Shown here: piece after piece, positions 60,839 to 64,000 of the stretch | Numbering within the stretch: position 1 is the stretch's first letter | Layout: each line of letters starts with the position of its first letter | Assembly: GCF_002078015.1 (NCBI RefSeq) | Contig: NZ_LWBP01000123.1 | Coordinates: 1-64,000 of the forward strand | Reading direction: 5' to 3' | Length of the DNA: 64,000 nucleotides | From: Niastella populi | GTDB lineage: Bacteria > Bacteroidota > Bacteroidia > Chitinophagales > Chitinophagaceae | Notes under the pieces: generated by a model | What the model was told of the DNA's origin: nothing | Database searches by the model: none | The model's input: only the letters and a program-made list of their open reading frames with translations | Made by a program: the position numbers and the translations under genes

Positions 60839-62569
60839 ATGTCACGTTCAGTAAAAAAAAGCAATACGACCGCCTTCGAAAAGACCCCTACCGGCATCAA
60901 TGGTTTCGATGAAATCACTAATGGCGGCCTTCCCGCCAACAGGCCAACGCTCGTTTGTGGCGAAGCCGGTGCAGGCAAAACATTATTCTCCATAGAATTT
61001 ATAGTTCGCGGGATACTTCAATATAATGAGCCGGGTGTTATTATGGTTTTTGAGGAAAAAGCTGAAGACCTTGAACAGAACGTAGCCTCGCTGGGTTTCA
61101 ATTTGAAAAAACTACAAAAAGACGGATTACTGTGGATCGATCATGTGCATATCGACCGCACCGAAATTGAGGAAACGGGGATGTACGACCTGGATGGTTT
61201 GTTCATTCGTTTAGCACATGCCATTGATACCACTGGTGCCAAACGGGTAATGCTCGACACCATCGAGAACCTGTTTGGCGGCTTCGAGAATGAAGGTATT
61301 TTGCGCGCTGAATTAAGAAGGCTATTCAGCTGGCTTAAGAACAGAGGCATCACTACCATCATCACCGCTGAAAAAGGGCTGGGTACGCTTACCCGCCATG
61401 GACTTGAAGAATATGTTTCCGATTGTGTGATCCTCCTCGATCACCGGGTTAAAAATCAAATTTCTACGCGACTGCTTCGCGTGGTGAAATATCGTGGCTC
61501 CCTGCATGGTACCAACGAATATCCGTTTCTCATTGATGAAGATGGTATTTCTGTATTACCTGTTACATCCCTGTTGCTCGAAAGAGAAGTTTCCTCCCAA
61601 CGGATCTCCTGCGGTATTCCATCGCTCGATGACATGTTGGACGGCAGGGGATTTTACCGGGGAAGCTCTATTCTTATCTCAGGTACTGCGGGCACCGGCA
61701 AAACCAATATTGCCGCTTATTTTGCCGATGCTTCCTGCAAACGTAAAGAGCGCTGTTTGTTCTTTGCATTTGAAGAATCGCCGCCTCAGATCATTCGGAA
61801 TATGCAATCGATCAATATCGATCTGAAAAAGCATATAGATGCCGGGCTTTTGCAGATCCTGGCTACAAGGCCAACGTCGTATGGACTTGAATCGCATCTT
61901 GTGTCCATACATAAAAGAGTAAAACAATATAAACCACGTACGGTAATCCTCGACCCTATAACAAACCTGGTGACCGTGGCCTCCATCAGTGATGTAAAAT
62001 CAATGCTGACCCGCCTGCTCGATTTTTTGCAGAACGAAGGCATTACTGTTCTTTTTACAGCATTGGTATTTGATAATGAGAAATCGTTACAAACAGATGA
62101 GGGTATATCTTCCCTGGTAGATGCGTGGATTCAGGTGCGCGATATAGAAGGTAACGGCGAACGAAACAGGGGCATCTACATTATGAAATCGAGAGGCATG
62201 AACCACAGCAACCAGGTAAGGGAGTTTGTGATCACCGAAAAAGGCCTGGAGCTCGTTGATGTGTTCCAGGGGCCTGAAGGCATTCTGGTTGGTTCGGCAC
62301 GGCAGGCCCAGCTACTGCAGGAGGCTACCGGCATTGAATTACGAACTTACGCCGCCAGCCGGAAAGATCAGGCAATCGAACGTAAGAAATTAGTGCTGGA
62401 AGCGAAAATCGCGTCATTGAGAGAAGAGTTTGAGTCGGTACAGGATGAGCTCAATAAAACATTTATGGAAGAAAAATTGAAGAAAGAGATCATGGAGCGG
62501 AACAGACAACAATTAGCCAATTCCCGAAACAACCGGAATTTAAAAAATGGCAAAAACAGCAAAAAATAA
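60839..62569 (+). CDS. kaiC: KaiC-like dual-ATPase
   Basis: 576 residues with two RecA/KaiC domains. CI: Walker A GEAGAGKT (41-48), catalytic Glu pair E72-E73 in [12 protein letters not shown]: Walker A GTAGTGKT (282-289), Glu pair E312-E313 in FEESPP. In the CII stretch that aligns with the cyanobacterial phosphosites S431/T432, this protein has Ser424-Ser425 (DEGISSLVD). The C-terminal ~70 residues are a charged coiled coil ([20 protein letters not shown]) not found in cyanobacterial KaiC. Its 3' end overlaps kaiB by 23 bases. No kaiA gene is nearby. Confidence 0.95.
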
Positions 62570-62897
62570 AACGAATAACCAGTTAAGGTCTGTTATACGG
62601 CCAAACAAGCCAAAAGAGGAAAAATGGCAGTTACGTTTGTATATTGCCGGTAACACACCAAAATCGGCCGCTGCGCTTATCAATTTAAAAAAATATTGCG
62701 AAGAGCACCTGAACGACCGGTACGAGCTGGAAGTGATCGACCTGTTGGTGAATCCCCAACTGGCGGCCGGCGACCAGATACTGGCTATTCCTACCCTGGT
62801 AAGAAAAGTACCGGTGCCGGTTCGTAAAATAATCGGCGACCTGTCGAATGAAGAAAAAGTTTTAGTAGGACTAGACCTTAGATCTATAAAAAAATAA
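62547..62897 (+). CDS. kaiB: KaiB-like protein, copy 1
   Basis: 116 residues. The thioredoxin-like KaiB fold is clear and close to the cyanobacterial form: [66 protein letters not shown]. KaiB binds KaiC CI and can switch fold. Starts inside the end of kaiC (23 bases overlap) and ends one base before the second kaiB. Extra ~25 basic N-terminal residues. Confidence 0.95.
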
Positions 62898-62898
62898 C

Positions 62899-63219
62899 AT
62901 GAAAAAAAACGGCGGGAACAACGATCTGAAAAAAAAATCGAAACCTCCTCCGGAGTATGACCTACGCCTGTATGTTACCGGCGCTACACCAAACTCTGTA
63001 AAAGCGATAGCCAATATCACGAATATTTGCGAGTCGTTTTTAAAAGACAGGTATGATCTGCAGATCATAGACGTTTACAAAGACGCTTCTGTGGCCTGGC
63101 AGGAGCAGATCATTGCCCTGCCATTATTGATAAAAAAACTCCCGCTCCCTGAACGAAAGCTCATAGGCGACCTATCTGAAACCGATAAAGTATTAAAAGC
63201 CCTGGGGGTTGAAATGTAA
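62899..63219 (+). CDS. KaiB-like protein, copy 2
   Basis: 106 residues, KaiB family: LRLYVTGATPNSVKAIANITN, DLQIIDVYKDASVAWQEQIIALPLLIK, PERKLIGDLSETDKVLKALG. Diverges from copy 1 at NPQL (DASV) and in the PVPVRK region (LPLPERK), so the two are not recent duplicates. Its stop overlaps the kinase start (TAATG). Confidence 0.93.
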   Translation: MKKNGGNNDLKKKSKPPPEYDLRLYVTGATPNSVKAIANITNICESFLKDRYDLQIIDVYKDASVAWQEQIIALPLLIKKLPLPERKLIGDLSETDKVLKALGVEM

Positions 63220-64000
63220 TGGACAGGAATATCAAACTTAAAGACGACCTGTTGCGGGAACTGGAAGAAACCCGCCGCCAGTTGTACGAAGCTAAAGAAA
63301 CCATCGAGGCTATTCGTACAGGTCAGGTCGACGCGCTCGTTGTACAAAAAGGCAGCACCCACCAGTTATATACACTTAAAACAGCCGATCATACTTACCG
63401 GATATTTATCGAAAAAATGACCGAGGGCGCATTAACGCTCAGCCAGCAGGGCATTATCCTGTATGCCAATTCAAGTTTCGGTAATATGATCGGTATGCCG
63501 CTTTCGAGCATCATTGGCCTTCCATTCGAACAGTTCATTTCAAAAGACAACCTTGCTTTTTATAAAACGCTTTTCAAAACCTCCTGGGCAGGTGATTGCA
63601 AAGGAGAAGTAGAGATCTTTTATAACGGCAACCGTACACCGGTTCAACTTTCACTCACCGTGCTCGAGCTCGATGAAGGCATAGCCCTAAGCATCATCAT
63701 TACCGATCTCACCCTGCAAAAAAACACCCAAAGAAAACTTGAAGAGAACAATCGCCAACTTGAACACCTGAACCATACACTCGAAAACAGCAATCACGAT
63801 CTGCAGCAGTTTGCATCGGTAGCATCGCATGACCTGCAGGAACCTTTGCGCAAGATCCAGATGTTTTCAAACATTTTGAAGAATAAAGCATCGGGCAATT
63901 TAAGCAATGAAGAGATTGCCTACCTTGAAAAGATCATCGCTTCCACCGAACGCATGAAAGCATTGATAATTGACATCCTGAATTACAGCAGACTTTCTGC
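63219..64000 (+). CDS. PAS-histidine kinase, 3' end beyond window
   Basis: Starts at ATG 63219, overlapping the kaiB stop by one base. At least 260 residues are visible. N-terminal coiled coil (LKDDLLRELEETRRQLYEA), a PAS domain (about 65-175: GIILYANSSFGNMIGMPLSSI), a second coiled coil and a HisKA domain with the His in ASHDLQEPLRK. No TM segment, so a cytosolic kinase. Its ATPase part lies beyond 64000. The position ties it to KaiC output, as SasA/KaiC-linked kinases in other bacteria, but it has no KaiB-like domain of its own. Confidence 0.9.
   Translation, partial: MDRNIKLKDDLLRELEETRRQLYEAKETIEAIRTGQVDALVVQKGSTHQLYTLKTADHTYRIFIEKMTEGALTLSQQGIILYANSSFGNMIGMPLSSIIGLPFEQFISKDNLAFYKTLFKTSWAGDCKGEVEIFYNGNRTPVQLSLTVLELDEGIALSIIITDLTLQKNTQRKLEENNRQLEHLNHTLENSNHDLQQFASVASHDLQEPLRKIQMFSNILKNKASGNLSNEEIAYLEKIIASTERMKALIIDILNYSRLS

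Follow-up and report, generated by a model that had tools for sequence, protein, structure and literature searches.

A kai operon lies at the end of a 64,000-nucleotide stretch of the Niastella populi genome (positions 1 to 64,000 of contig NZ_LWBP01000123.1; this whole stretch is called the window below). It encodes a KaiC, two KaiB proteins (KaiBa and KaiBb), and a histidine kinase with a PAS domain. Judged by their sequences, kaiBa and kaiBb are two different KaiB groups, and the kinase begins with a 43-residue module that recurs in kai-adjacent kinases of other organisms. It is the second KaiB and the kinase module that look new here; KaiC and KaiBa are of a known type. We tentatively propose a KaiA-less KaiC2 energy-state timer in which KaiB function is divided between two proteins, KaiBb serving as the adaptor for a dedicated kinase, a reading that we consider quite possible, if still short of probable.

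Two KaiB types and a Kai-linked kinase module

Both KaiB proteins contain the Pfam KaiB domain (E 6.9e-26 and 2.6e-21), and KaiBb scores 75.6 bits against PF07689, for which the cut-off is 27. The nearest solved relative of KaiBa is the Rhodobacter sphaeroides KaiB (8fwj), which is 61.9% identical to KaiBa over 84 residues and 43.5% identical to KaiBb over 85 residues. In an alignment of 79 rows per type, the mean frequency of the most common residue at Synechococcus elongatus positions 50–58, a stretch picked after the conservation table had been seen, is 0.979 in KaiBa versus 0.522 in KaiBb; at the remaining positions the means are 0.857 and 0.721, and the gap is larger at 50–58 (Mann-Whitney p 0.0007). 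Positions 50–55 form helix 2 in the KaiBb model, and it is chiefly through helix alpha2 that KaiB contacts KaiC (PMC6769508). Conservation of the KaiC-binding helix is thus kept in KaiBa and lost in KaiBb, which shows features peculiar to it, for example IDVYQQ ahead of helix 2. The single KaiB of a genome from another Bacteroidota family (f18; L125:1486-1827) combines the YQQ of KaiBb with the PQLA helix of KaiBa.

The AlphaFold model of KaiBb shows the fold-switched (thioredoxin-like) order with a mean predicted local distance difference test (pLDDT) score of 83. In the PDB, the model comes closest to KaiB taken from complexes with KaiC and to Lpp1115, and the SasA N-domain appears from rank 12 (6x61, 1t4y).

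A KaiB tree was built from 175 of 250 rows, after removal of L113–L117, rows with <60 filled columns, and near-copies. The Bacteroidia first copies form one cluster (54 first copies and one solo copy; Shimodaira-Hasegawa-like approximate likelihood ratio test 98) that holds no second copy, and a recent tandem duplication of kaiB was rejected on this ground. The second copies are not one clade (nine label changes), and those of Methanoperedens and of G453 and G512 split off close to the base of the part of the tree that holds the first copies; the deep order is weak, the alignment having 99 columns. An uncultured archaeon with a Methanoperedens-like KaiC encodes three consecutive kaiB genes after kaiC (L075:7689-8885), two of which group with first-type KaiB on the tree and the third with the Methanoperedens second copy.

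The module at kinase residues 20–62 has the consensus L.EA.E.I.AIR.G.VDALVV....G.Q.YTL..AD..YR and has no Pfam match above cut-off. It is more conserved than the PAS domain (0.776 vs 0.585 in 45 sequences, p 0.0003) and is modeled as the end of a long helix followed by a beta-hairpin of low confidence. Kinases encoded next to kai genes share the module in Bacteroidota, Methanoperedens, Rhizobiaceae, Falsirhodobacter, and R. sphaeroides; the R. sphaeroides kinase is annotated as belonging to another class, HWE. On a Pararhizobium plasmid, kaiC-kaiB-kaiB is followed by a gene annotated as a response regulator, which matches the kinase profile and contains the module. A regular expression for the module matched 127 of 130 kai-adjacent kinases collected with the kinase profile; in the three missed (L067, L075, and L123) the module is visible by eye, being more divergent in L067 and beginning upstream of the listed frame in L075. 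The 130 kinases are not independent: the window kinase is counted twice, L113–L117 are repeats, and 13 sets are identical in an 80-residue comparison, leaving 115. Searches of whole genomes and plasmids are the real test of the link between module and kaiB.

Among 392 Bacteroidota genomes (with 18 candidates scored in the big ones), the module matched in 31, two of which (G283 and G430) gave weak and partial matches and have no KaiB. The 29 clear copies, one per genome, all begin 63–320 bases after a KaiB domain match; all fall in the 38 genomes with KaiB above cut-off, and none in the other 354 (Fisher 2.6e-36, a value that ignores kinship). In a family sample of 195 genomes, the module occurs in 18, each time as a single copy ≤120 bases from a KaiB match (compared by hand); the carriers are G120, which has one KaiB, and 17 genomes in which KaiB is paired. 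The module is missing from G010 and G139, whose KaiB is divergent. The N. populi genome contains one copy (all 57 candidates scored). When 72,556 plasmids were searched with kinase residues 1–114, the stretch matched 13 records, representing five genera with nine records from one species, each ≤83 bases from a KaiB match; five further KaiB plasmids had no match to these residues, and none was found in phages. The motif letters and KaiB were found together in no open-licence paper.

In the phylum sample, the module is missing from nine genomes that have KaiB. Only short KaiB matches occur in G364 and G404, the KaiC of G199 and that of G278 are more distant, and in G207 and G371 no KaiC was seen within 1.5 kb; the others are G540, G269, and G445. 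In G371 (L120:291-3246), KaiB lies between a kinase and a receiver-type protein.

KaiBb also covaries with the kinase N-terminus. Pairwise distances were compared over 64 of 78 loci, after exclusion of 10 Flavobacterium and two Methanoperedens loci with long branches and of L038 and L056 with short kinase fragments, against a null of one tree for four proteins with a rate for each (200 simulations). The partial correlation between KaiBb and the kinase N-terminus is 0.50, against a null of 0.16 (standard deviation 0.095) that reached this value in 0/200 simulations, whereas that between KaiBb and KaiC is 0.10 against a null of 0.40, with 200/200 simulations at least as high. The other four partial values, including KaiBa-KaiC (0.37; null 0.35), lie inside the spread of the null. 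The two kinase-length subsets point the same way: the KaiBb-kinase partial value is 0.39 in loci with short kinases (34) and 0.53 in those with long kinases (26), and for the kinase catalytic core it is -0.08 and 0.14, respectively. KaiBb and the kinase are the pair that stays together while the proteins fit one tree poorly.

Operon structure and distribution

The window holds only part of the operon: the kinase is cut at its end (64000), and a receiver gene lies wholly outside (Table 1). The sequence-only reading had described a compact four-gene kaiC-kaiB-kaiB-kinase module with a small gap and overlaps, and rechecking coordinates on the contig bore this out: kaiC and kaiBa share 23 bases (62547-62569), one base separates the kaiBa stop (62897) from the kaiBb start (62899), and base 63219 is common to the kaiBb stop and the kinase start. 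That reading was right about the order of the four genes, and gene order and Pfam domains agree with its view of one Kai module with a kinase in a Bacteroidota-type genome; the fifth gene lay outside its view, and it missed that the KaiB proteins fall into different groups and that the kinase has a Kai-linked module. Its two different KaiB proteins and PAS kinase are recovered by Pfam, which matched two KaiB domains, PAS, and HisKA, as well as HATPase_c in the kinase (E 4.9e-22) and Response_reg in the receiver (E 2.8e-17). No membrane segment was seen in the kinase on inspection by eye.

Table 1. Genes and protein features of the N. populi kai operon
Feature	Position	Strand	Description
kaiC (KaiC2 type), 576 residues	60839..62569	+	CI and CII ATPase domains, C-terminal coiled-coil-type tail
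kaiBa, 116 residues	62547..62897	+	canonical KaiB; KaiC-binding helix region PQLAAGDQI conserved
kaiBb, 106 residues	62899..63219	+	second, divergent KaiB; 47% identity to kaiBa
PAS/HisKA/HATPase_c kinase, 428 residues	63219..64505 (63219..64000 inside window)	+	N-terminal coil and module, PAS, HisKA, HATPase_c
Kai-linked kinase module, 43 residues (20-62)	63276..63404	+	predicted end of a long helix plus a beta-hairpin of low confidence
Stand-alone single-domain response regulator, 135 residues	64506..64913 (beyond window)		starts without a gap after the kinase stop

KaiC has the features that had been read from its sequence: two ATPase domains with intact catalytic Glu pairs (at 72-73 and 312-313), a Ser424-Ser425 phosphosite, and a C-terminal tail of coiled-coil type. 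Its Walker A motifs start at positions 41 and 282. The extension of about 50 residues that forms the coiled coil in the R. sphaeroides clade is present and aligns with the tail of R. sphaeroides KaiC (8dba); from position 490 on there are 87 residues here and 88 in R. sphaeroides. A C-terminal tail and Ser-Ser are marks of KaiC2 (PMC10076222, Pitsawong 2023). All 80 relatives retain the two Glu pairs and the two Walker lysines; the phosphosite is Ser-Ser in 78/80 and Ala-Ser in 2/80. Among solved structures the KaiC of R. sphaeroides (8dba, 8fwi) is nearest, with 52.4% identity over 550 aligned residues, and the closest among the matches listed is from Niastella caeni (81%). KaiC and KaiBa are of the known KaiC2/KaiB2 type solved in R. 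sphaeroides, and because they are homologous to those proteins they would be expected to work in the same way.

The N. populi genome (8.6 Mb, 263 contigs, completeness 100) has no KaiB domain besides those of kaiBa and kaiBb (E 0.001) and no second frame with two full KaiC domains. The noted absence of KaiA holds genome-wide as far as the PF07688 profile can show it: there is no match, while a Synechococcus control does match. A promoter pattern of Bacteroidota type had two matches in the window, none near the operon and not above chance.

A scan of genome contigs found at least 582 relatives, and the 80 best of them were retained, a set in which close relatives are overrepresented. The order KaiC-KaiB-KaiB-kinase occurs in 78 of these, and the set includes Chitinophagaceae, Spirosomataceae, Sphingobacteriaceae, Flavobacteriaceae, and Methanoperedens. 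The two nonstandard loci are L075, with three kaiB genes, and L067 (L067:7746-9838, Arcticibacter svalbardensis), where kaiC is followed by kaiBb with no kaiBa found in between and the kinase reading frame is broken into two parts, reflecting either misassembly or operon decay. Record L010, whose title Williamsia sp. is that of an actinomycete, contains a kai operon with a KaiC 77% identical to that of N. populi and groups with Chitinophagaceae; it is probably a mislabeled bin. In the family sample, 25/195 genomes have a KaiB match, 20 of them above cut-off, and 17/20 have an adjacent pair (hand count); in the phylum sample the corresponding figures are 40/392, 38, and 21/38.

The layout was suggested to be poorly described in this phylum. 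For the literature this stands: in open-licence texts, tandem KaiB turned up only as a passing "kaiCBB" for Thiodictyon (PMC5944118), adjacent kaiC, single kaiB, and kinase being already known (PMC4794148, PMC5520375, PMC3164672), and a group of Bacteroidetes is described as encoding only KaiB2/KaiC2-like proteins (Schmelling 2017). For genomes it does not, as the layout is common in all three surveys; a finding that the genes are rarely together would have told against the sequence-only reading, and this rarity test therefore does not refute it.

A proposed division of KaiB and its alternatives

By homology with R. sphaeroides, KaiC hexamers would pair via their C-terminal tails, KaiC would phosphorylate itself at Ser424/Ser425 at high ATP, and KaiBa would bind the ADP-bound CI ring and so reset KaiC. 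R. sphaeroides KaiC is a dodecamer held by its tails and phosphorylated independently of KaiA, and its KaiB binds the ADP state of CI in a system that responds to ATP/ADP (PMC10076222). KaiC2 and KaiBa would thus form an ATP/ADP-driven hourglass. KaiBb, in our proposal, would work mainly with the kinase, docking on its N-terminal coil/hairpin module and coupling it to the Kai complex, so that KaiBb and the kinase together may be a two-chain equivalent of SasA. The signal would run from KaiC to the kinase, which would then phosphorylate the adjoining stand-alone receiver. A broader version, in which KaiB is split within one operon and KaiBb recognizes a previously undescribed, Kai-only docking module through which KaiA-less timers generally send their output in Bacteroidota, Rhizobia, R. 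sphaeroides, and Methanoperedens, pluggable onto kinases of the HisKA and HWE classes, is conceivable, and we regard it with some doubt.

Several observations weigh against this proposal. Most serious, operons with only one KaiB carry the module as well (R. sphaeroides, Sinorhizobium, Falsirhodobacter, G120, G318, G421, and f18), and it therefore cannot need KaiBb everywhere; no hidden KaiBb was seen by eye in the gap of G318 or G421 in the three coding-strand frames. In single-KaiB operons one KaiB may do both jobs, for which the mixed features of L125 offer a comparison. G269 and G445 have KaiB and no module, and they are true exceptions because their KaiC is about as close as in module-bearing genomes. 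No KaiB-kinase fusion was found in the phylum sample, where all KaiB-bearing frames are <200 residues, and a receiver was detected next in only a minority of standard loci (23/78). The structural models add further caution: AlphaFold gives one state only, KaiBb is the one KaiB that was modeled, and its five models range in pLDDT from 83 to 62, while the module hairpin has pLDDT <50 and is unanchored. A conserved yet unanchored hairpin is as expected of a partner surface, but also of a poor model.

The covariation, too, can be read otherwise. The partial value is weaker in the short-kinase subset (0.39), where KaiBb-kinase exceeds KaiBb-KaiC in 449/500 resamplings. The plain KaiBb-kinase correlation (0.70) is no higher than the null (0.71); the other five pairs fall below their own null values (KaiC-KaiBb 0.57 vs 0.77, KaiC-kinase 0.73 vs 0.84, and the remaining three 0.64 vs 0.74, 0.44 vs 0.62, and 0.60 vs 0.67), so that a single shared tree describes the real data poorly. 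The partial excess could also arise if kaiBb and the kinase were swapped together or if constraint on both were relaxed. Against joint transfer of neighbors, kaiBa is equally near to kaiBb and lacks such covariation.

A real possibility, although one that we somewhat doubt, is an energy or stress switch that keeps no time, in which KaiC-KaiBa reports ATP/ADP to the two-component system. The R. sphaeroides system tracks ATP/ADP (PMC10076222), and the distribution of these operons is patchy, with no KaiB match in either of the two further genomes that the family sample contains from this genus; set against this, a slow switch and an hourglass timer differ only in kinetics.

It is rather unlikely, in our view, that both KaiB proteins sit on the KaiC CI ring, mixed or competing, with KaiBb tuning the reset and the kinase module reading KaiC or the ring. 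In favor of such a ring, KaiBb retains the KaiB core, in that S. elongatus positions 15, 20, 23, 26, 45, 62, 69, 77, 78, 80, and 89 are the same and near-invariant in both types, and the KaiBb model is best matched by KaiB from KaiC complexes. KaiBb has Arg22 in 62/79 rows, and Arg at position 22 makes a lateral KaiB-KaiB contact in cyanobacteria (PMC6769508); since KaiBa keeps Glu83 (78/79) and mostly has Thr or Ala at 22, a complementary contact between the two is conceivable. However, conservation of the KaiC-binding helix is lost in KaiBb, its covariation with KaiC is below the shared-tree prediction, and R. sphaeroides KaiB is described as free of neighbor contacts (PMC10076222) even though Glu83 is present.

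Reversing the direction of the signal, the kinase could be an input that detects redox or some other cue through its PAS domain and in turn acts on the Kai proteins. Such a role has been proposed for R. sphaeroides (PMC5520375, PMC10931921), and a PAS domain comes after the module, but we consider it unlikely here: the receiver gene directly follows the kinase in N. populi, as in the minority of relatives noted above, which suggests an outward phosphorelay. That KaiBb is a redundant or decaying duplicate is highly improbable: its sequence changes more quickly than that of KaiBa (mean identity 0.55 vs 0.77 over 64 loci), and G318, G421, and other single-KaiB genomes yielded no further KaiB, but 14 KaiBb columns, start Met included, are invariant over 55 sequences and the KaiB pair is kept in 78/80 loci and also in Methanoperedens and Pararhizobium.

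If KaiBb is indeed a kinase adaptor, this natural division of KaiB would pull apart two tasks, KaiC reset and outward signaling, that are mixed in single-KaiB systems, and the two-KaiB system would offer a way to learn how clock-like timers outside cyanobacteria pass their signal on. The KaiC/KaiB chemistry is solved in R. sphaeroides, and a term search of the main text of that timer paper (PMC10076222) did not find "histidine kinase"; the module is a concrete candidate for the missing link to the reader of the timer. Occurring once per genome and only beside kaiB in everything searched (Bacteroidota genomes, plasmids, and phages), it also provides a sequence handle for Kai outputs elsewhere.

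Relationship to known Kai systems

The closest counterpart is the KaiBC system of R. sphaeroides, which shares the KaiC tail and Ser-Ser site, a canonical KaiB, and an adjacent kinase with the same N-terminal module; it differs in having a single KaiB, a kinase annotated as HWE, and no receiver gene listed beside the kinase. Three other systems were compared by description. Rhodopseudomonas palustris has kaiC, kaiB, and a PAS histidine kinase thought to be under one promoter, but one kaiB according to a figure legend (PMC4794148). Thiodictyon syntrophicum has kaiC with two kaiB genes, but their neighbor is a diguanylate cyclase (PMC5944118). In Ramlibacter tataouinensis, RtaNt belongs to a kaiC-tied kinase family whose N-terminus is thought to meet KaiC, but the genome is described as lacking KaiB and RtaNt is likened to SasA and KaiB (PMC3164672).

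The cyanobacterial SasA-RpaA pair likewise joins a KaiB-fold domain to a histidine kinase, and the SasA N-domain is among the matches to the KaiBb model. SasA carries its KaiB-like domain in the same chain, whereas in N. populi the KaiB-like protein and the kinase are products of separate genes, and the kinase carries another module.

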